Assembly (NCBI GenBank): GCA_009602725.1 | Contig: WELB01000171.1 | Location: 38,608-61,429, forward strand | Direction of reading: 5' to 3' | DNA: 22,822 nucleotides | DNA from: Spirogloea muscicola | Lineage: Eukaryota; Streptophyta; Zygnematophyceae; Spirogloeales; Spirogloeaceae | In this document: one piece after another, positions 3,287 to 22,822 of the stretch | Position numbering within the stretch: the first letter of the stretch is position 1 | Layout: each line of letters opens with the position of its first letter | Notes under the pieces: generated by a model | What the model saw: only the letters and a program-made list of their open reading frames with translations | The model's database searches: none | Told to the model about the DNA's origin: nothing | Position numbers and translations under genes: made by a program

Positions 3287-6200
3287 TCAGGACTGCATTA
3301 GCATCCAAGACAAATGGTCTAGTACTCTTGCGGCCGTCACCCGGGCGCCCATGAGGACCAGTGGGACGCCATTGCCGGGCCGTGTGGACGCTCCCACAAA
3401 GAACAAGCCACGTACTACGTGGTCCTCGATGCCTGGGCGAAAGTATGCCAGCTGGGAGAGGCCATGAGATAGGCCGAAGGCCGCACCATGCTGCAGGTTG
3501 TACGCATCCCGCCACTGTGGTGGCGCTATCACAAACTCAGACACAATGTGGTCCTCGACATTGCCTACTCCTTCCTCTTGTAACCTGCACAGGGATGCCA
3601 CTTGCTGGGAGGTGAAAAGGACAGTCCAGTGCTATCGCTACACGTGCCCTCATGCATTGTCCTGCAAGAGTCGAGCTGAATGGTTGTACATTTCCCCATC
3701 AGGCTTTGCTGGCTTTGCTGCTAACACAGTGGTAATGCAAAGCCCTGTATCCTTGCAGGCAAGCTAGCGAGATAGTCCTGGAATCTCTATTGCTACCCGG
3801 CTGCAGCAATGTCGGCAAGCCCTCCTCAACTACGAGCACGGCGCCCTTGTCGAGTTCATTGGGAGGAAGAATGGCTGACCTTTGGAGCACCTTGGACCTC
3901 GCAGCAGACACAAGAGCTTCCCATCGAGCATCCGCGTCGATGGCACTGCCAGCTTCCATCTGGCCGAGGTTGGCTACCGGCAGCAACACCGTGATTGCAT
4001 CACATCCTGCACATAGAGGAGACCACCTTTGACAATCTGCAGCCACATTCTCAGCCTGGAAACATTGCAGGGGCACACTGGGGCTGTGGGATATGGACCT
4101 GGAGGTGCAGCAGAGCTGTCTGTCCTCTGCGGCGCGTGGACGTAGAAGTTGGGCCGTGCCACCAGGCTCTGGGGCCCAGTGGCGCGAGCCCAGCTCCTTT
4201 CGACGTCGTCCGACAGGAACACGTTGTGGTGGGCGAGAGCCGGCAGGTGGGTGTCAAGCGCCCAATTGAATGAGACTATGCCTGCGCTGCTCCAACACTC
4301 AGGCAGAATATATCATGCATTGCTGTCAGGGCTGTGCCATTGTCAGCTCAGATGTCAATCACGTGTCAGCTTGACCAACACGTCAGTACGGAAGCCCCTT
4401 CCACGCTTCACATGACCGAACCTTGCAAAGCACCAAGCAATTGCAGATAGCAGCACTGACTTGATGAGAACGCAGAGACGTGCAAATTACGTCAACTGAC
4501 GATGAAAGCAGAGCAGATTGCAAGGTCGTGGATTACAGACAGTGTCGAGCTAGAGCTGCACCTGTACTCCATCTTGTTCAGTTGGGCCGCCTTCCTCTGA
4601 GCCTGCAATCCTGGCGAGCATACGCTCCTATTTATCTCAGTTTGTTGTGAGCAAATCAAGACCACAAGTCACAGCTTTTGCGCAGCCCAAAGTCTGGCCT
4701 CACTCGGACGCTTGGTCACATACGCTCCATTCGTCATCGCGGCTATCATACATCAGGTGCTCCCAGGATGATGGAAAGCTGGTATTCTGACTTCACCTGG
4801 GACCAGCTGACTGTATGCATAAGGTAGGTCAGCATTCGCCACAACAACATCTGCAGCAATTGTTGACCTGTCCTGCAATGTCACTCCAGATACCTGTGTC
4901 ACACAAGCTCATGGTCAGAACCTGCGTCTCTCATATATCTCTTAACATGCTATCCTGATCTACTGACACTTTTTCTCGTTTTGTGCAAGCAGTAAATATT
5001 ATCGGCGAGGTTGTGATAACAAGCCATGACTGCAACTCTCAGTGGTCAGCGTAAAAGGCAAAGCTTTCAAAGAGGTTTCTTTCGATTTATCTGCGGACCA
5101 TCAAACCTTACTGTTGCATTCATTGATTGCCTGCACCTCCGCTGACATGCGAACATCCACACCATTCTTGACAGCGGTGCTGAACAAGGCATCTTGAATT
5201 TTCTGGAAGCCGCCGACAGGGTACCACACGCCGTCTGTGATTTCTGTTGCGGCAAGGAGGCTGAAAACACCTGGTGCGTCGTAAGGCGTCAGGCCAACAT
5301 ATAAGTCCTGCAAAGAGATGCCCAGCTCCACTTCAACGCTAGAATATAGCTCATTGTGATGATCAAGAAGGGCACAGATGTTGCTATATCCACGTATATA
5401 GATACTACAGTCGCACATGCAGATTGTGCTCTGATGCGTACAAAGCATCGTGGAACAAACACTGGCAAATCATTTCGTGCACAATCCCAACACATAGAAG
5501 TAAAAGCTTTTCACATAAACTAGGGCTTAGAAGACTTCATCTAGCTCACCATGAATAGCTATTGAAGCCAGCAGCTATCCAGAACAACGAAATTCAATTG
5601 GAATTTGTACATAATAGGACAACAAATTACGACAGAGGAAAGGTGCAATGGCACTCAAGTAGCATGCCATGCATTTATGAGCCACCTGAAAGGTGAAGAG
5701 GGCCTGCAGCCGGGGATCCTTGAAATAGGTGGCCATGCGGGCATGGTGCTGCCCTAGGAGCTCAAATGGGGACAGCTTGCTCAACAGGGGCAGCAGGCGC
5801 GGCAAGTTGGCATAGTCCCAAAAGCTCCGGAAGTCGCGCTCGATGAAATTCTCTGTGCCCTGATTGACACGTAACTTATGTAGTCAACAGCAGCACCTGG
5901 GCTGGGAAAGGTGAAGCCATGTGCCCTGACATACTTGCAGTGGAAGGATCAAGCAACCTGGCCAATCCATGGCAGCTGAACGGACTCGGACTCGGATTCA
6001 CTGACAACAGACGGCCAGGGGTTAAGGTTTAGGGGTTAGCGTTTTGGGTCTAGGGTTTGGGGTTTAGAGTTACGGTTCAAGGTTTAGGCGCAGCTAGCTC
6101 TTCAACGTGAGCCTGACTACCGGACAGAGTCACCTAAATTCAATCAGCTGTGTAAACGCAAAGCCTGTTATTTAGTTGTCTTCTGCAGTCCCTGGCATCT

Positions 6201-7284
6201 GCCCCAGTGACGACGGCTTTACCCTACTCCGGTCACCTTAACGAGGGCCTCACGGGCATTGGCCAGGAAGCGCAGGTACGCGCTGGAGCACCCCGGCTCG
6301 ATGTGCTCGAGCTGCTCGGCCATGCGCTGCACGTCGTAGAGCAGGTCCACCGCAAGCGGCGGCCCCCACGGCCCTCGTGCGAAGAAGACGCGGTACGCTG
6401 CTGGCTCAACCCTGCGCAGCTCCACATGCTCGTCCAAATCCTCACCTGCGAAAGCAGGTACACAGACAAGGACAACTACTTAGGATCAGAGCTTCACAAT
6501 ATGAAGACTTCGGTTCAGTGTAGGAAGTCCACAACGGCTTCTACATTTCTTCGGGTGACTTGGACTTCTGTGACGAGGCTAAGGCCCAGGTTGCAGGTAT
6601 GGGGGAAGTCCGACCCGTAAACTGCAGATGCAGGCCCGCCCCCAGCAACATGCTCAAAATGCTAGGACCCATCGTGCCTGTTCTGGAGCTATAAGGAGGG
6701 AACGAAAGCGTGGAATGGCTGACGATGTTATGGGACTGAGCACACATTGAAGCTGCGTGGCCTTGCGCAAGAGAGGTGAGGCGGCAGCTCGGGCGTACGT
6801 GGGCTCAGAGCGGAGGTTAATGGCGGCGCTGACCGAGGTCCGCGAAGGCCTCCCGGCACTTGTTGGGCATCAGCAGCAGGCTAGGCCCAGTGTCGAAGCG
6901 GAACCGTTGCCGGCCGTCAGCCGCCTCCGGCAGCGGCCCATCAACGGCGGCACCAGCGCCGCCACGACCATCTAACTCAACGAGCACCGACTGCAGTCGG
7001 CCGCCGGGCCGGGCGTTCTTCTCCAGGACCGTCACGGCGTGGCCCGCCTTGGCCAGCAGCCCGGCGACGGCCAGGCCGCCGACGCCGGCGCCCACGACGG
7101 CCACCTTGCGACGGCGGCTGCTTTGGGCCTCCGCTGGCGGTCCGTCGCCAGCTGCGGAGGCTCGCCGACGACTTCCGCACTCCTTTGAGACGGGCCTCGC
7201 TGTGGCGGTATGGGTGAAGCCACTTGCAGCCGCCAAGCCCAGGGCTGGCGAAGCCGCCGTCGGCATTGCCGCAGCTGCCGTCAT
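3287..7284 (-). CDS. CrtI-type carotenoid desaturase/isomerase-family FAD oxidoreductase, plastid-targeted
   Basis: Nine exons in transcript order: 7284-6834, 6445-6237, 5859-5686, 5307-5107, 4893-4797, 4610-4551, 4275-4099, 4006-3880, 3584-3287. They sum to 1794 nt, or 597 residues plus stop, with phases agreeing throughout. Residues 1-60 are rich in Ala/Ser/Arg without acidic clusters, like a chloroplast transit peptide. At 61-97 lies the FAD Rossmann fold (VAVVGAGVGG, then VTVLEKNARPGGRL). Further motifs: FDTGPSLLL, FIERDFRSFWDY, DLYVGLTPYDAPGVFSLL, TDGVWYPVGGF, VVVANADLPYAY, LAHHNVFLSDD, RPNFYVHAP, and near 563-573 GASTRPGNGVP, the CrtI-family C-terminal FAD signature. The family acts on carotenoid polyenes (phytoene desaturases, isomerases and related enzymes). 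Which reaction this member catalyses cannot be told, and CRTISO-like proteins are an alternative. The start is the first in-frame ATG; only GTG lies above it. The exon 6/7 junction needs a GC donor. Confidence 0.9.
4276..4550 (-). other. Probable GC-AG intron (CrtI-type gene intron 6)
   Basis: The upstream exon must end after TGCAGCTCTA at 4551 and the next begin TCTCATTC at 4275 to restore the family motif CSSISFNWALD in frame. This puts GCTCGA at the donor and CATAG at the acceptor. The nearby GT (in TACAGGTGCAG) gives the wrong phase. The donor is not a strong GCAAGT match, so confidence is moderate. Confidence 0.55.
6018..6088 (+). repeat. Degenerate telomere-like TTTAGGG block in CrtI-type intron 2
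   Basis: About ten degenerate units of the GGTTTAGGG type (for example GGTTTAGGGGTTAG, TCTAGGGTTTGGGG, AAGGTTTAGGC) fill about 70 nt of intron 2 (5860-6236). The G-rich strand is the plus strand, opposite to the gene. The variants (GTTTTGGG, TTACGG) show it is old. Confidence 0.75.
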
Positions 7285-8061
7285 TGCTCGGCGCCAGGAG
7301 AGCGCCACCTGCTGCAGTGCAGCAGTTGTTTGTTGGCGACGCGCAAGGTCCTTCGTCTGTAGCCTTCAGGGTTTGGGTTTAGTCCATTCCTTTGGGCTGG
7401 CCTCGTACAGCCAGTAGTGAATTTGGAAGCGCTTCTCTTCTTTACTGCTGAAGCCTACAATGTAGTCTTCAGTCCGTCTCGGATCGACCTTATGGCTCCG
7501 ATGGTTTATGATCTATATGGTCTATATGATTTATTGACCTTGACTCGGACTTTCAAGTCAGGGAAGGCAAAAGGCCCTTAAGCAAGTGACAACAAGCGCC
7601 ACACAGTCGCCAAATCCAGCGTCTTGCACTCTTGGAGGCGCTCGCTTGCGGAAGAAGCTCTGGCGAGTGTGCAATAGGATCAGGCACGCAGTGCTTGTCT
7701 TTGACTTAGTGCAAAGACTTGAACTGTACACTGAGAGTAAAAAATGTCAGGAACTGACACGAAAGCAGAAGGCTCATCTCAGTGTCTGCAGCACAAGAAA
7801 CCTCGCCCACCTGTCCTTAGCCGGCAAGAGGTGAGCGTCCACCTCCGCTGGCCTGCATGGCACATGGCTCGCCTGCGACTGGCTCGCTGATGCGGAGCCA
7901 GCCATCAGATCGGCCTACTGCAGCATGCTGTATGACCTGAGGACGTGACCCAGATTGCGACGCATTTGCCTAGGATCTGCCGACCAAGATGCAACCCGTC
8001 TGCTCACTCCCAGCGCCCTACACATTATGCCACAATCATCACCAAGCTTGAGCACCAGTGA
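7285..8061. other. Intergenic region between two minus-strand genes
   Basis: This separates the SKL2 stop (8062) from the CrtI-type start (7284), so it should hold the SKL2 3' end and the CrtI-type promoter and leader. A short telomere-like CAGGGTTTGGGTTTAG lies at 7366-7382. An AT-rich stretch around 7498-7545 repeats TCTATATG-like units. No gene is supported. Confidence 0.6.
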
Positions 8062-13217: not shown

Positions 13218-16151
13218 ATGAAGTTCTGCAAGCTCCTGCGTAGTCAGGCGGACTATTCCATGCCCGAGTGGCGCAACAAGTTCCTCTCGTACAAGGACCT
13301 CAAGAAGCGCCTCAAGTCTTTGTCCTCGCCCGACTGCTTTGCTAGTATGTTGAACGCTCCTCCCCAGCCTGCTGATATGCCGGCAGCTTACTGTAGCAGA
13401 CGCCCAATTGTTTGTGCTTCAAGGTAGCACTGAGCAGAGATGCTTGGACGATGTCAAATCATGGACTCCGTACTGTGGGCGAGTGCTTAGTTCACCTTTG
13501 TCCCGAGCTATGTTGCCGAGTTAGAGCCCTGTTGAGGATAGCAGCGTCAAGCAGTTGGTGAGGTGCTAAGCTATGTTAGGTCCTTGAGATGGTGTCTAGT
13601 CTTGCTTGATCATGCGTCCTTAATCGCATGTTTTCATCGTCATTTGCATGTGCCTGATGTCTGACCTGCATCTGTGACGCGCTGTTGGTGGCAGAGAGAG
13701 ACCAGCATCCAAAATCATTCCTGCGGGATGGTGGCGGCAAGCTGCGGAAGGCTGCGGCCCCAGCTCCAGAGCACTGCGCGTCTGCCTCCCCTGAGGTGGA
13801 CGAGTTCATCAACCTACTCAATGTGGAGCTCGAGAAATTTAACAATTTCTACCTGGAGAAGGAGGAGGACTTCGTGATACGCCTCCAGGACCTCAAAGAG
13901 CATGTTGAGCACGTGGTGAGATCCGCAGACCTGACCATACTTTGACACAAAGCAACACAACCCGGCATGATCTTGTCCTCAGACCTGCTGGATCATACAC
14001 AAACAGACCGTCCAGCATCATTCCATGGTCTAGGTTGCACATTGACTCACCACACAAAGCGCCTCTGATGGCGTTTGATGGTGGACAGCAGGATGCTTGT
14101 GATCCATGCACTGCTGGCTCTTGAGATTGAAGACCAACAGATTAGAAACTTATAGCTGGATGTTATTTGTTTCTGAGGTTAACAGTTGCTACGTTCTTGA
14201 AACATACCGGAGTTTTACCCCTAGAAGCTGATAGCACATGGCTTTCTCCAACCATATGCTGTCAGCTTATTGTTTGAACGGTGTCGAAAACATTGGCCAA
14301 AGTTGGCAGTGGTTGCTCTTACATCAGACTGATGCAACTAGTGAAATTGCCAGTGATTGATTCATGTGATGGAGAAGGCAGGGCACCAGATCCTGACTCC
14401 TGTGTCATGTCCCTTGTACGCAGAGGTCAAAGTGCTCGCAGAAGGACATGTCAGCCTGTGAGGACTGCGCCAAGGAGATTGATGAGGTCCGGAGGGCCAT
14501 CGTGGCGTTTCATGGGGAGATGGTTTGTGCTTCGCGACCTTTCTCAGCAGGCTCCTACACTGTGCAACATAGCGTTGCTTCCCGTAGCCAAGAGCAATGT
14601 GCAGTTCAGCGTCAGCGTGTGCTCTTTGGTAGTCACACTGGTTGACCACACTGTCTCGGCAAATGTGTGTGTTCGGCAACACATGACTGTTAGAGGAAAG
14701 AGGTCCTTCTAAGACTTAGTCACTCAGTTTCTGCTCTTCATCCTGTTTCTCATCCAGTTCCTCAAGCAACATGCCTTCTGCACGTCACTCGTCAGCAGCA
14801 GAGTCAGAAAGCATTCCACCTCACGTTGATGACATTCCGCCCTGTCATGTTGCCAGGTCCTTCTGAAAAACTACAGCTTGCTCAACTACATTGGGCTGGT
14901 CAAGATCCTCAAGAAGCACGACAAAATCAGGGGGTCGCTACTGCGCTCGCCGTACATTACCAATGTCCTCCGACAGGTACGCAATGCTGCTGGCGCTTGA
15001 CTGTTATAGCCTGACCTCTGTCGCAGTGTGTACTGATGATTTTTTGCCTTGGATCTTAGATCAGAGGAAGGTCTTATCGGTGTATTATAAAAAGGGGTCA
15101 GTCAGGCTTGTCTAAGTCAAGTGACTATGATGCGGCAACTTGTAAGGTCCACAACAGAAAAACACCTTACCATGTCCTACTGTTTGCTTACTTGTGCACC
15201 TGACAAATTGGTATTGGTTTTTGAGATTGATCCTGAATGTGCACATTGTACATGTCCAGCCTTTCTACACCACCGAGCTGCTGTCCCGACTCGTCAACGA
15301 GTGTGAACAGCGGTTGCTCGTTGTCTTCCCTGCACCTGGTAAAGTGCCTGTGCTCTGTAGGGCGGCTCTTGTATATTGTATCTCTGTATTTCTTCTCGTG
15401 GGCTTGCTCAGTCTTGGCCACCTTATGTAGCTGAGCCTGCACTGAAGAGTAGACCTCTGCAGCCTCTAGCACATACTTTTGCTTGCTGTCCAGGTCCAAG
15501 ATGCCGTCCCCTGCCTAATCTTTATCTGTGCACTTTGTCATTACATGAGCAGAGGCAGGCATTTTGCACATATACTTACCTGCTGCTCATGTCCAAGAGG
15601 TCGTCCACTGTCTGCTCACTTTGTGGTGCAATTTTTCTGTGACATGAGCAGGGGCTGCTCAGTCACCTTCTTCAGACGCGATCGGAGACAGGAGATCTGC
15701 TGGTGTCACCCTCAAGACGGTTGCCTCTCACTTGAGGGGAAGCGCCAACTTGGCAGCTGCATTGCCGGAGCACGAGCTCATCGATAGCATTTACCGCAGT
15801 GCCATGGTCGCCCTTGATGCGCTAGATGACATTCAGCACAAGTCAAGGACGCCGCAGATTCCCATCCCCGGCAAACGCGACCGGGATTCTAAGTCGGAGG
15901 AGGCGGGGAGCAGCGATGTGGATGACAGCGATGCGGAGGTGGGCCCCTTCAACAGCGCGGTGGAGGGTGGGAGTCCGCAGTTGCTGAAGCGGCAAAGAAC
16001 AAGCGAAGATGCTGGAGTTGGTGAGACGGGACTTGATGTGAAGGATGAATTGGAAAAGGTTGTGTCTGGTGAGTATGCCGAGAAGGAGAAGTCGATCGAG
16101 AAAGACGAGCCTGCGACTGGCAGCAGGGACACAGAGGCAACCAGGTTATGA
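13218..16151 (+). CDS. Stand-alone SPX-domain protein (phosphate/inositol pyrophosphate sensor)
   Basis: Six exons: 13218-13344, 13695-13915, 14424-14522, 14857-14976, 15260-15338, 15676-16151. Total 1122 nt, 373 residues, all GT-AG and in phase. The N-terminus starts [10 protein letters not shown], followed by [18 protein letters not shown] (16-33), the first SPX helices with the Tyr/Lys residues that bind inositol pyrophosphates. Next come [36 protein letters not shown] and the lysine cluster KILKKHDK (165-172), then [12 protein letters not shown]. No EXS, RING, MFS or VTC domain follows, so it resembles the small plant SPX1-4 proteins, which hold phosphate-starvation MYB factors when phosphate is plentiful. 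The tail (about 217-373) is low-complexity, with an acidic Ser/Asp stretch and a short basic KRQR patch that could be a nuclear signal. It faces SKL2 across a shared 2.2-kb region. The partner factor is inferred, not seen. Confidence 0.93.
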
Positions 16152-16935: not shown

Positions 16936-19900
16936 CTACATATTACGTCGTTGGACAATATCAAGAAGGCGCTTGTTGCTGCTGGCTCGAGCCAGGCTGA
17001 TGGGAGTCTCGCCAGCATCATCAGCCATGAGGACATCTGCTCCACTTTCCACCAAGAGCTGACAAGGGCAACGAGTCAACCTGGTCCATGTCAGGGTCAA
17101 CCATAGCTCCCGGGGCAGTATTAGTGGCTCGGCTCTGTACATTGCTCTCAAGTGTAAGGGCAAATACTAATTTTGATGCAGACGCAAGGCTTTGTAACCC
17201 AAAGACATGGCTGATTGAATCGATACGAGATGTGATGTAAGGTGATGGAACAATTACCTGCACAACGGCAATGTTCTGCTTGACACACGCGATGTGGAGA
17301 GCCGTCCTCCCTGTGTAGTCCCTTGCTCTGAAGTCTGCGCCACAGCGGAGCAGGCGTCGGAGGTGCGCGAGGTCGCCCAACGCCGCCGCCCCGCACAAGA
17401 GCGTCCCAGGGTCTGGGAGCCTCAGCTGGGCGCCTGCTTTCAGAAGTCTCTCAATCACAGCCGGCTGGCCTGCTTTCACGGCCTCCAGGAGAGGAGTGCT
17501 GCCTTCCTGGTCTGCAGGAGGTATCACAAGGGACCAACCGACAGTGGGGTCAGCACATAACACTAGGATATCTCAGCTTACATGTACTACAGAGCCAAGG
17601 GTTCCCTGTATTGAATACTGCCAAGTGCACTCATTACACCCAAAAGGGCACATTATGCGCAACATGGAGCAACATTGACAAACAACATTGACAAAGCTTT
17701 ATCACAAGCTGAACATAGATTTGCAAAGGGGGATGAGACAATGGAGGACTGCACGGGACGCTCCGAGTGATGCGGACTTACACAGACACATACACAGACA
17801 CATCTGAGAAGGAAGGCACGCATGCTGCCGCTCGTACCAGCAGCTAAGGTATCACCACCCTCCTCGATCAGGAAATGCACGCAGTCCTCAAAGCCTTGGC
17901 GAGCAGCTAAGTGCTGCACACGTTCTTGAGAAGCCAGTGAGTACATGTTGTACTTACAGTTTTGCAGCAGGACAGCTTCAAGGTGGTCAACCTCAGCATG
18001 CAGCCAATACAACGCAAGGAGTGTGACTGATAAGTGTTGTCTCGACGCTACAAGGGGCATACCAGTGGAGTGCGACCAGCATAGTCAGGAGTGCTGGCAG
18101 AGGCGGGCCCCTTCACAAGCGCTTGGAGGCGCCCAAGATCGCCCCTTCATGTGGAAAGCGGCAGATGGCAAACTTGAAGGGCATCAGTACTGACAAATGC
18201 AGCCCTGTGACATCATTGACGCTTATGACTGGGTCATCAGCTCCTTCCCATGTCTCTTGCATTGACACTGCCACTAATCTACATGAGGCTGTTGAAAAGG
18301 CCTCTCACATTGCTGCTGCCGCACAGAGCGCTGTGCTCAGCTCCGCGTCGTGCTGCTCAATGAGGCTTGCAAGCTCTGTTGTCATGGAGCTGACCTCTGC
18401 CCGTGTTCGGACGAGCAACTTCTGGCCAGGTGAGCTCCCTCCAGCTTCCACCTTCTGCTAGGACAGGTAGGTAGACAAAGACGAGTGAGTCACACGAATA
18501 CAGCAGTTCATTCCACTTCCTTTACAGGAAATGAAGGAAGTGCAAGGAAGGCAACAGTAATTTGTACCATGGACTGCAGTGATGCAAAGTATCTTGGTGG
18601 AGATAAGGCCATCCAAGATGATGCTGCAACATAATTGGGGTTGCTTGTACCACATCCCCATGACACACCTAACAGCCCTCCTAACCTTTGCTGCACCTCA
18701 TAGCAAGCCACAGGTCTCTCTTGTGCAACAAGGCCTTTGGTCCTTCGGTGCACCTCATAGTAGGCCCAAAGGCCTTGTTTCGTGCAAGACGCAGGTCATT
18801 GTTGCTGCCAATTCTGCCCATCTCTTTGTTGTTGTCATCTACGTAAGCACTTGTAGCTGCTAATCAGCAGCTGAGGAATGCACTTGAGACGATTTGCGGC
18901 CTTGCCTCTTTAAGGTTGGCAAGTATCTGGCGCGCTTCGCGCGGGTAAGCCCGGAGGATGTGGGAGAAGGCCTGCTTGTCAAGCTTCAGCAGCTGGCAAA
19001 GGCCCAGCGTGCGTACAGTGAGCAGTTGTGGTACATTGCAGAGCACCGCCATCTTGCCAAACACCGACCCTGGGCCAAGCTCTGCCTGTGAAAACCAGAT
19101 CCAGGGTCACGAGTAATGACATTCTAGATTATTGTGTTGCAAGGTGATAATGAGCATGCAATTGGTATATTAAGCTCGAGTCTTAGCTTCAGAATATGGA
19201 CGCTGCTCCATATGCAGACTAGACGAGGCTTCTACTAAGACTCTGGTTGTCTGGTGAGACCAATCAATGTAAAGGAGAGTGCTGCTGGCCATCAAGACCG
19301 CGGACATAGTCTGGCAGGACTTTCATTGGAATAAAGGCTTCCTCATCATCCTGCTACACAGTAGCCTTACGCACGTGAAAGGCAATACTTACCATCATGT
19401 TACTTCCGCTACAGAAATCACGCACCTGTTTACAAAGCAGACGAAAGATGGTTGCTGAGAATTGCCTGCCCAAGGAGGGCATGCTCTGACCTATTCCAGA
19501 AGTATGCCCTTCTCATCTCATCACCACTTTCGACGAAGTCGACAATAGCAATCAAATGGCCTCATATGGCTCGAGTACTTTCTCCTGCAGTCCTCATCAA
19601 CGTGCAAGACTCTCAAGACTGCCCAGTTGTCCTTCCTCTCACTTACAAGGGTACCAGATACAACAATGTACAGGTGAGCTGCAACGTCGCCCTCTGTGAC
19701 GACCACAGTGTTGGGCATAACTGTTTCCAGCTTCATTTCGCTGACCTGCAACAGCCACACTCTTATGCATGTCATAATCCTGGCAGATTGAAAACCAACT
19801 GCATATTCCCTTCATCGACCATCACCACAGGAAATATTCACTCACTGTCTGATTGACTTGGCAAGAGAAGTGAGCCTTGACCTGAAGCTGCTGACACCAT

Positions 19901-22822
19901 CAACACAGATGCAAAGTGGCAAAGGGCAGAGAGGAAAGGGACGAGTATCTACCACTTGATTCAGGAACTGAAGTGAGCAGCTCTGGAATGGGTATGTGGC
20001 AGAGACAAGAGGCAGGTACAAATGACGCGCAACGGCGACCTGGAGATGCCGTGGAAATTGTTCCAGAAACGTGCCCAGCTCCTGGTGAAGCTGCATCTCC
20101 AGGTGTGCGCGCAGCTGAGCCCTTATGCCCTGCGGGAGACCATGTCGCGCTGCATATCGCTGGAGGGCCTGCATCTCCTCGTGCTGCGGAGGTATATGGC
20201 AGTACATCAGAAAGGTCCTCAATTCTAGCACTGAAGCGACTTGTCCCGCACCAGGAAGTAACCCAAGTGATTGCTGTACACCTGCTATGCCTCAAACAAT
20301 GAGCGGGTCGATTTCATCCCAGCGTACGATACTTCTGTTGCAAGCTGGAGACTTTCCTTTTGGAATCCAAGGGTTGTCTTACATATTGCATTGTTTTGCT
20401 GGAATTCTTGACGATGAGCAATGTAAGTGTGCCAAGGGTGTAGGCAAGCTGCAGAGTGGTGTGGTTCAGCAGAGGCACCAGGTTTAGGTGCTTGGCCTGT
20501 CCTCACTGCCAACCTTATGTAGACTCAGGTTGCACCTCTGAAGCATATACAGTATGAGGGCCTAAGATGAAGTAGGAAACTTGCAACAGAGAGTGGCTAC
20601 AATAGCCCATGCCAAGAACAACACATGCTTCTGGGTCAACGAGGGAACTTACAACAGCCATCCCAAACAAGGCATAAAACGTGATGAAAATCTGCTCTGG
20701 GGTGGTATTGGCTGTGTAAGCGGGCCCTATGCTGGTTATCGTGAATACCGACCAGTAAATGGCTGCGACATCATGATTTCGTTTAGCATATTGGTCAATT
20801 GCGGCCCAATGGCTAGAGGTTTATTGCGAGGGGTGAAATCAAAAGCAGGTCCTATGAGATTAATTACTAAGAAACGAATGTCTGGTCCAATACAAAGATC
20901 ACCCCGGTGACTGGTCCCGCAGAAGACATTGAAAGTGAAGGGACAGAGTTTTCTCCAGGAGCTTACTGGCGATGTACTGTTTGGCAATGCCTTGCCCCTT
21001 CCAGTCAGTGCCGATGCCCTGGCCAATCCAACTATTGTCTGGATTTGATTCCACAGTCGCAATGTAAAAGTATAGGATACCAGCATAATGTGCACCGAGC
21101 AAAATGTTCTGCATGATGTGCGAGTAAATTATAAGTCTGAGCATGCATGACACTTGCATCCCCTCACTTTTTGGGATGACGTGCGACAACTAGTAATCAC
21201 CTATCAAGGACGTAAAAGTCATACTAATTCATCAAGTCTGGCAACTTGTCTCTTACAAAGCTTAGCTTTGACAATAATGATGTCATAGACAACTCAGATT
21301 CTCAGGGGATTGGGCAGAGTCCTGCTCGATGGTGGAGCTAGCTGAGTTTGACTAGCTGGGCTGAAATGCTCTGAGGATGCAAGCAAAGGACTGGAGGCGG
21401 GAGAGTACTCTTCACATACAATGAAGAGCTTGGACAGTCGGATGATCATGTAGCCATACCGATGCTTCCGGCCCAATCTGCACAAGTAGTGTGACTGACA
21501 TCACTTCAGCAAGATCACTTACATGCTTGAGACATGTCATTTGCTCAGTACAGGGTGGACTTTTGCATTGCTCACCAATTCCGTGCAGGAGCAAACAAAG
21601 ATGTACTTTGCTGCCTGCAGTAGTAACTTTCTAACCCCTGGACCCCAGACTTGGACACTTTGACCAAGACCCCTACACCCTACCTAGACCAAATCCATGC
21701 CGAAGGCTGGTAATTTCCACGGAGAATCAAGTGACAAATTGCCACGATGCAAGGCCAGTCGGAAGAGCTTGCTCACTGTGACAAAATTTCGTAGACGTGG
21801 CCCAGCCGATATATGCGGAGACATACTAGAAGCCTTAGCACGTCACCGAGCCGCCCGTGGGGCGGGTGGCCGGCAGCCAGGTACCACAGGAGGCTGTAAG
21901 GAATCGTCGACAAGATGTCTGGAATGAGACCATGGCTTGCATACCTGAGTAATAGCAGAGAGCACAGTGGGAAAGTCAAGCTGACTAGAACTTCACAATG
22001 CTGGAAGAGCAGTAGATAGACATCTGGCAGGAAGAATCAGTATCAATGCGAGTCGAGAAAAGAAGTTCCTGTCCGACTTGCTACCCAATGAGCACAGCAA
22101 AGTCACAAGTGCACGTCACAGAAGCGGCAAAATCTCCAATTGCAGGAGTAACCAGCAGGAAGGCACTGAGGAAGACCGGGAGGAAGGGGGAGGGAGGACA
22201 GGAAGGGGAGCATTGGACCTCCGGACTCGCTTCCTGCGTTCGGTTGCGAGCGTGAGGTCCCTGACATCCCGGTAAGCCACAAAGAAGGTGAGGCCTATAT
22301 CGATGGCAAAGAGGAGGTCGATAGCGGCGTCCCACATGATGAGGCCCAGCGGGGGGTGGGCCACGAAGCCGAATTGGAACGGCGACACGATCGCCGCGTA
22401 GGCCTCCCAGATGGCAATGAACCTGGCAGCCAGCTGCTCGCCTTGTAAGAGCACGCGCACGTATGCTGGCGGCCCGTTCTGGATCGCTGCTGGCAGCGAC
22501 AGAGACTGAGGCAATGTAGGTGCTGGCGCACTTTTTCCACAGCCGGTATCGAGGCCCCTGCGGGTGGACCAGCCGCGAGCGCCGCAGCTCCGCGAGCTCC
22601 CACTTGATCTGCTCGGGCATGCGCAGCGCCTGGATGCGCCGGAACTTCTCCGAGATGGCGTCGGTCGGCGAGGCGCTGCAGCCGCGGCCGAGCGGGCAAG
22701 CGCGGCGCGTCAGGATCGGCGAGAAGAACAAGAGCTCGTGGTAGAAGAGTGTCGTGAGCGCCGCCGGCGTCGCGGCGGCAGCTCCTGCGGCGCGCTCCCG
22801 GGCCGGCACGGCGGGCGGCGGG
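16936..22822 (-). CDS. AKT/Shaker-like channel with CNB-like domain and ankyrin repeats, non-GYG pore, 5' partial
   Basis: Exons in transcript order: >22822-22532, 22422-22266, 22023-21992, 21944-21777, 21477-21420, 21108-20967, 20762-20653, 20448-20383, 20183-19953, 19745-19647, 19425-19393, 19085-18906, 18454-18309, 18144-18063, 17913-17838, 17511-17258, 17058-16936. They encode 748 residues in the window, in phase throughout. S1 (AAIVSPFQFGF), S2 (LLFAIDIGLTFFVAYRD), S3 (LIPDILSTIPYSLLWYL), an S4-like arginine series (VLRLLVCLRIYRL), S5 (LLGAHYAGILYFY), pore helix (IYWSVFTIT) and S6 (FYALFGMAVLAYTLGTLTLL) match plant inward-rectifier channels. The selectivity filter reads TSIGPAY instead of TTVGYGD. 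A C-linker, a CNB-like fold (MKLETVMPNTVVVTEGD, then LGPGSVFGKMAVL) and five to six ankyrin repeats follow (GRTPLHLAARQG, GSTPLLEAVKAG, GRTALHIACVKQ). The stop comes directly after the ankyrins, so the C-terminal KHA domain of AKT1 is missing. Plasma or organelle membrane is likely; ion selectivity is unknown. Confidence 0.9.
17958..18026 (-). other. Possible 69-nt cassette or pseudo-exon in channel intron
   Basis: Inside the intron between channel exons 18144-18063 and 17913-17838 lies a segment with a good acceptor (TTATCAG) and a strong donor (GTAAGT). It is 69 nt and in phase 0, with no stop codon in the inserted frame. The direct join without it restores the ankyrin motif GRTPLHLAARQG, so the main mRNA should skip it. 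Confidence 0.4.
18455..18905 (-). other. Channel intron with ambiguous GC or GT donor
   Basis: After CTTAAAGAG the sequence GCAAGG (18905) is a good GC donor. A GT donor (GTCTCA) 12 nt further on, after CAAATC, is also in phase 0 and would add the four residues ARPQI-like tail codons. Only transcript data can decide. The acceptor is TAGCAG at 18455. Confidence 0.45.
18727..18779. repeat. 14-bp inverted repeat with flanking direct repeat in channel intron
   Basis: AACAAGGCCTTTGG (18727-18740) and CCAAAGGCCTTGTT (18766-18779) are perfect reverse complements. The sequence TGCACCTCATAGCA upstream of the left arm recurs as TGCACCTCATAGTA in the loop. No function is known. Confidence 0.75.
21638..21690 (+). 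repeat. Weak CCCTA-rich telomere-like stretch in channel intron
   Basis: AACCCCTGGACCCCAGACTT and ACCCCTACACCCTACCTAGACC-like sequence lies in the intron between channel exons 21944-21777 and 21477-21420. It is much decayed and could be chance. Confidence 0.3.

Follow-up and report, generated by a model that had tools for sequence, protein, structure and literature searches.

A Shaker-type channel gene of the alga Spirogloea muscicola with TSIGPAY in place of the K+ selectivity signature

The window, a stretch of 22,822 nucleotides from contig WELB01000171.1 of the zygnematophycean alga Spirogloea muscicola, carries on its minus strand a gene for a channel subunit, here called the GPAY gene. 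The gene runs from the window end, beyond which lies a run of N, to a stop codon at 16938-16936. Tail to tail with it lies an SPX-domain gene (13220-16150, plus strand; Pfam SPX 1.2e-26 for the hand-joined protein), and exons resembling a CrtI-type carotenoid desaturase occupy 3287-7365 on the minus strand, with crtI_fam as the best NCBIfam match in four of five stretches, each below the whole-protein cut-off.

Nine exons of the channel gene, from 22758 to 19647, join via GT-AG introns with matching phases into 435 residues free of stops. A spliced aligner recovers all nine and adds one more (19085-18906), which brings the total to 495 residues; its scoring used the joined protein together with 60 residues read by eye, and it is a consistency check, not an independent prediction. 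The first exon seen (22532-22758; this and all the following exons are on the minus strand) encodes the cytosolic N-terminus as far as YRLWK, ahead of S1, its 5' part being lost in the N run past the window end. There follow, by joined exons and aligner, the exons for S1 and S2 (FIAIWEAYAAIVSPFQFGFV to IDIGLTFFVAYRD; 22219-22422) and for S3 and S4 (DILSTIPY to LRLLVCLRIYRLGHV; 21777-21944), both also placed by alignment, for the S4-S5 linker and the start of S5 (21420-21477), and for S5 with the turret (ESNPDNSWIG to KQYIA; 20967-21108). The pore exon (20653-20762), found in three genomic copies, encodes the pore helix, the filter and the first half of S6; it joins S1-S5 upstream and S6, the C-linker and the CNB-like domain downstream, in phase and at GT-AG sites. 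The second half of S6 (LAYTLGTLTLLIVKNSSKTMQY; 20383-20448), the C-linker (19953-20183) and the first part of the CNB-like domain (19647-19745, with a cNMP_binding match) come next, again by joined exons and aligner. The second part of this domain (AELGPGSVFGKMAVLC to ANLKE; 18906-19085) is placed by the aligner and Pfam and is followed by a proposed GC-AG intron, its GC donor read by eye. The exons 3' of this tenth one were also read by eye and have approximate boundaries: the linker to the ankyrin repeats (KVEAGGSSPGQK to LCAAAA; 18309-18454) and the first repeat (GDLGRLQALVKGPASASTPDYAGRTPL; 18063-18144), both part of a hand-joined C-terminus, then several exons with further repeats and the TAG stop (16936-17960), whose inner boundaries are approximate and whose last residues are LLDIVQRRNM.

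The domain content is that of a plant-type Shaker channel. In the predicted protein, Pfam Ion_trans (54.2 bits) and cNMP_binding (44.9 bits) are both over cut-off, with Ion_trans_2 slightly below (22.3 against 22.5 bits); together with a continuous match to SKOR they give a six-helix core, a C-linker and a CNB-like domain, for which nucleotide binding is putative. C-terminal ankyrin repeats, which mark the SKOR/GORK/AKT subset, are present in the hand-joined protein with one uncertain stretch omitted, where several ankyrin families exceed their cut-offs (Ank_2 1.9e-25). S4 (LRLLVCLRIYRLGHV) has the series R, R, R, H; it is less charged than KAT1 LRLWRLRRV and has one or two basic residues fewer than KAT1 and SKOR. 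Of the domains that an earlier note on this DNA had called intact, the CNB-like domain and the ankyrin repeats are indeed kept, the voltage sensor only broadly so.

Comparison with known structures points to the same family. Among the best 60 of 130 phmmer matches to PDB chains, SKOR stands first (4.7e-70), matching from before S1 to the CNB-like domain, followed by AKT5 (2.2e-67), GORK, AKT1 (5.2e-67), KAT1 (7.6e-64) and KAT3 (1.8e-59); hERG (6.1e-24), HCN4 (4.8e-21) and CNGA2 (9.3e-21) are far weaker. SKOR and GORK have the same domain order as the GPAY gene, ankyrin repeats included; AKT1, AKT5 and KAT1 belong to the same fold family, GYGD being seen in AKT1 and KAT1 (the AKT5 filter was not viewed). 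For the hand-joined C-terminus, GORK (7.1e-52) and SKOR (1.0e-48) are the best matches among ion channels, and designed ankyrin proteins score higher.

Gene structure agrees. For six of the nine introns, one or more SKOR/AKT-like genes of the same genome have an intron in the same alignment column and phase; three are private to the GPAY gene (between YRLWK and K, YIA and T, and MAV and L). By the same comparison of column and phase, none is shared with the paralogue C123. An intron at YRLW common to the paralogues was considered and rejected, as the alignment columns differ. A ten-row tree sets two GPAY copies apart from the SKOR-like and KAT-like groups, with support of 92/93, below the starred level, and places the GPAY gene outside the pair of KAT1 and C41A; this placement is unsure, since C123 and the GPAY pair sit on long branches that meet in the tree. 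Shared descent with plant-type Shaker (SKOR/AKT-like) channels is nevertheless well indicated, because six of nine introns are common to the alga's own SKOR/AKT-like genes and the best matches are plant Shaker chains; the exact place in the tree is unsure.

Few motifs known from ion channels are as conserved as the K+ signature. In the GPAY gene the filter codons ACC AGC ATA GGG CCC GCT TAC (minus strand, 20736-20716) read T-S-I-G-P-A-Y and replace T-x-G-Y-G-D, as seen in a genome pattern search and an alignment of the copies. The degenerate pattern T-[ST]-I-G-P-A-Y matches exactly there (G000:C171:59323-59343, minus), in the frame fixed by the joined exons, and this bears out the earlier reading of the motif. 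In the whole genome searched (153,112,186 bases on 471 contigs, parts read as N) the pattern has three matches, one per gene copy; its reversed control has none in the same 153,112,186 bases. The surroundings are likewise those claimed for a plant Shaker-type channel: S5, the turret ESNPDNSWIG, the pore helix IYWSVFTIT and S6 (LAYTLGTLTLLIV). The signature itself is gone from all three copies found, each of which has TSIGPAY.

Aligned with SKOR, KAT1 and six paralogues from the same genome, T-S-I-G lines up with T-x-x-G in the K+ signature, P-A-Y stands where Y-G-D is expected, and one residue is missing further on. The loop, GPAYTANTTPE, is one residue shorter than GYGDIHAVNMRE, and the same holds when the SKOR filter region, TVGYGDIHAVNMRE, is set against TSIGPAYTANTTPE of the GPAY gene. 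The distance between the filter Gly and the pore-loop Glu is 10 residues in both GPAY copies counted, 11 in SKOR, KAT1 and the alga's own C41A, C41B, C364 and C99, and 12 in its C123 (C37 has no count, its gene model having missed that exon). CNGA1 also has 10, a match in length that comes from one alignment and one chain. With its filter loop TIG-ETPPPVRDSE, CNGA1 resembles the GPAY gene in loop length, in the T-x-I-G that is kept and in the absence of YG. Animal CNG channels differ in having a Glu in the filter, and their overall match is far weaker, CNGA2 being the best CNG chain among the 60 of 130 matches listed. In place of their TIGE filter with its acidic ring, the GPAY gene has Gly followed by P-A-Y, and its first acidic residue is the pore-loop Glu. 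Since the filter contains no acidic residue, the earlier guess of a Ca2+/Na+ channel finds no specific support in the sequence, and a CNG-type Ca2+ channel appears disfavoured.

The three copies of the pore exon, on contigs C171 (the window's own), C8 (95% identity) and C42 (94%), allow constraint to be weighed against decay or error. The TSIGPAY codons are identical in all three, on separate contigs, and an assembly error in GGG CCC GCT, named beforehand as grounds for abandoning the claim, is therefore very unlikely. Over the nine joined exons, gapped codons excluded, synonymous and nonsynonymous differences number 23 and 12 between the window and C42 (dN/dS 0.160, 388 codons), 31 and 15 between the window and C8 (0.149, 432 codons), and 20 and 10 between C42 and C8 (0.155, 386 codons). 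The synonymous excess is significant in each pair (P 2.6e-7, 1.1e-9 and 1.2e-6, respectively), and P stays at or below 1.1e-4 under an assumed transition bias of 8. The 50 codons that run from KQYIA past the filter and into S6 include 10 variable ones, nine with synonymous changes and one with a conservative T/S change just after the filter; pore helix, filter and S6 start are conserved in all three copies. Identity among them is 97.8-99.6% in the C-linker and first CNB-like exons. Between exons and introns the contrast is uneven: exons in general are 92-100% identical, and for introns 5' of the pore identity drops to 75-80% at the lowest. The copies differ by a dS of only 0.07-0.10, and the constraint seen is therefore recent, not of great age.

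A decaying gene or an assembly artefact would account for the holes in two of the three copies. The C42 copy (L014) has a single N in place of 139 nt of its S1-S2 exon, probably a gap in the assembly; in the C8 copy (L015), a 201-nt deletion removes the last 7 nt of the S6 exon, the donor site and following intron sequence. As read, neither yields a whole channel. The intron that follows the pore exon directly is moreover 94-96% identical, level with the pore exon itself (94-97%). Against this, the window copy has neither defect and is intact over its ten modelled exons, its 5' end being lost in the N run, and a dN/dS of about 0.15 with one and the same filter in three copies largely refutes decay. 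This explanation is accordingly given very little weight, and the codon pattern suggests that the channel gene is selectively maintained.

The same genome has canonical channels. Twelve channel loci were cut out for study, leaving out 12 weaker matches: three of them are GPAY copies, another eight (L001-L007, L012) have a reading frame with GYGD, and in L011 (C41B) an intron splits the codon, with GYGD present in the gene model. Six other channel loci were modelled across their exons, and five of the six models give GYGD; in the sixth, C37, GYGD is present in the DNA and was missed by the model. C41A matches KAT1 at 1e-121 and AKT1 at 2.3e-121. C37 (L018) is one base shorter than C41B just after the filter, its frame being broken as read. 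Several of the channel loci occur in about three to four related copies (C171/C42/C8; C364/C129/C99; C41/C37/C5/C123), such as a polyploid or hybrid genome, or haplotypes assembled separately, would give.

A transcript that differs from the model could in principle restore or remove the pore, either through an unseen exon or RNA editing that brings back GYG, or through an internal splice site. The pore exon contains an acceptor-like TTACACAG (20762-20712 minus, ending at 20712), and its use would drop 17 residues, IYWSVFTITSIGPAYTA, in frame and with them the pore. Both the string and the in-frame distance are present in the sequence, and in the alga's own C41B, C364 and C99 a phase-1 intron interrupts the filter Gly codon. 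Yet in the roughly 6 kb searched per copy, the gene strand has no G-[YF]-G string in a pore context in any of the three, and the pore codons that the internal site would discard look selectively kept. A differing transcript is the least probable of the explanations weighed here.

The string search covered the window copy up to the N run in which its 5' end is lost. TAYGGNGAY has no match on the gene strand of the window gene, and GGNTWYGG has one, in the intron that precedes the S4-S5 linker exon; a single match in a like context is seen in C42 and likewise in C8, and C8 has one more within the YRLW codons. The only match of GGNTWYGGNGAY in the window (7606-7617, minus) lies about 9 kb beyond the channel stop codon. 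Another exon supplying GYG, which the earlier note had said would overturn its claim, was thus rejected as a candidate: the DNA string search found none in a pore context in any copy.

The origin of the altered filter may be connected with an intron in the filter Gly codon. Among L016, L017, L018 and L020, the SKOR-like genes C41B, C364 and C99, and C37 by its DNA, have the filter Gly codon split by a phase-1 intron; the GPAY gene has no intron there. Its string GGCCCGCTTACACAG resembles an intron end. Because of this resemblance and the intron at that place in the SKOR-like genes, the altered filter might, as an idea only, descend from imprecise loss of an intron at the Gly codon.

Bacterial NaK, a small prokaryotic channel, offers a second comparison: it too has lost the outer part of the K+ signature (TVGDGN), but it has an Asp in the filter and a loop of standard length. 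The TVGDGN filter forms only the inner sites S3 and S4 and is non-selective, and a K+ filter has four sites (PMC9822992). Since the residues of the inner sites remain in the GPAY gene and those of the outer sites are gone, a cation pore without strong selectivity for K+ is plausible. The reading favoured here, with confidence falling somewhat short of even, is that the gene encodes a maintained SKOR/AKT-like subunit from which the outer half of the K+ signature has disappeared and which, by itself or together with partner subunits, passes cations with no strong selectivity for K+. The retained T-S-I-G would form two inner ion sites; the change of Y-G-D to P-A-Y and the loop one residue shorter would remove the residues of the outer sites and leave a loop of CNGA1-like length. 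From the observed sequence, gene structure, domains, constraint and loop length we infer the steps of assembly, ion conduction, loss of selectivity and gating: a tetramer of this subunit, or one that also contains canonical subunits made in the same cell, would conduct cations without strong preference for K+, and gating would proceed via the kept voltage sensor, S6 and C-linker. Several points count against this. The Pro that follows the filter Gly may keep the filter from conducting at all; an acidic residue like the Glu of CNG channels or the Asp of NaK is lacking; a non-conducting subunit would show the same constraint over its whole length; and the deletion in C8 would break that copy as read.

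The main rival, nearly as likely, is indeed a non-conducting regulatory subunit, which would assemble with canonical AKT/SKOR-like subunits and change their amount, voltage dependence or conductance. Its proposed functional analogue is KAT3 (AtKC1), a silent plant Shaker subunit that matches the GPAY protein at E 1.8e-59 and in plants assembles with AKT1 and modifies it in this way; chains of both proteins are found together in PDB entries 7xuf, 7wm1 and 9is8. A subunit whose own conduction is not needed would be free to change its filter, candidate canonical partners are present in the genome (C41A, C41B, C364/C99), and the near-identity of the C-linker and first CNB-like exons among the three copies would suit such a role. 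The pore is not drifting, however, as the identical TSIGPAY codons and the nine synonymous changes against one conservative change testify, and KAT3 itself keeps GYGD; it also differs from the GPAY protein in having no ankyrin repeats. A protein kept for a role outside the pore, as a voltage-driven or ankyrin scaffold with the pore occluded, would explain why S4, C-linker and ankyrin repeats are retained when the filter signature is gone; it is improbable, since the pore helix and the S6 start are conserved too, for which a scaffold has no obvious need.

If the favoured reading of a conducting, weakly selective subunit is taken further, one lineage among green-plant Shaker channels may independently have re-made a CNG-like filter, with the same loop length, the inner T-x-I-G sites kept and a neutral P-A-Y for YGD; on the sequence comparison this is a possibility to be held with some doubt. 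In the laboratory, deletion of YG makes Shaker non-selective, and the gene would then be a natural counterpart of that deletion. A survey of eukaryotic Kv-like/CNBD channels describes strong deviations from the TVGY/FG consensus as rare and as a property of individual channels, with animal CNG channels the only clade-level exception and plant CNGC outside its set (PMC7576140). The strings SIGPAY, TSIGPA, GPAYTAN and GPAYSAN were not found in the literature text searched. In a search for relatives, a virus contig collection gave no match, and of 15 stretches in a prokaryote contig collection that matched a peptide pattern none was confirmed; these viral and prokaryotic collections have no bearing on other algae.

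Motif-based screens can pass over channels with filters like TSIGPAY. Klebsormidium channels were selected by features that include GYGD (PMC4565715), and GYG served as an additional screen of one genome (PMC3410407). If a CNG-like filter was re-made here, the alga would have a voltage-gated, ankyrin-bearing, non-selective cation channel, a kind not found in the literature searched. A constrained gene with a replaced filter offers a direct test of selectivity loss on a plant Shaker scaffold.
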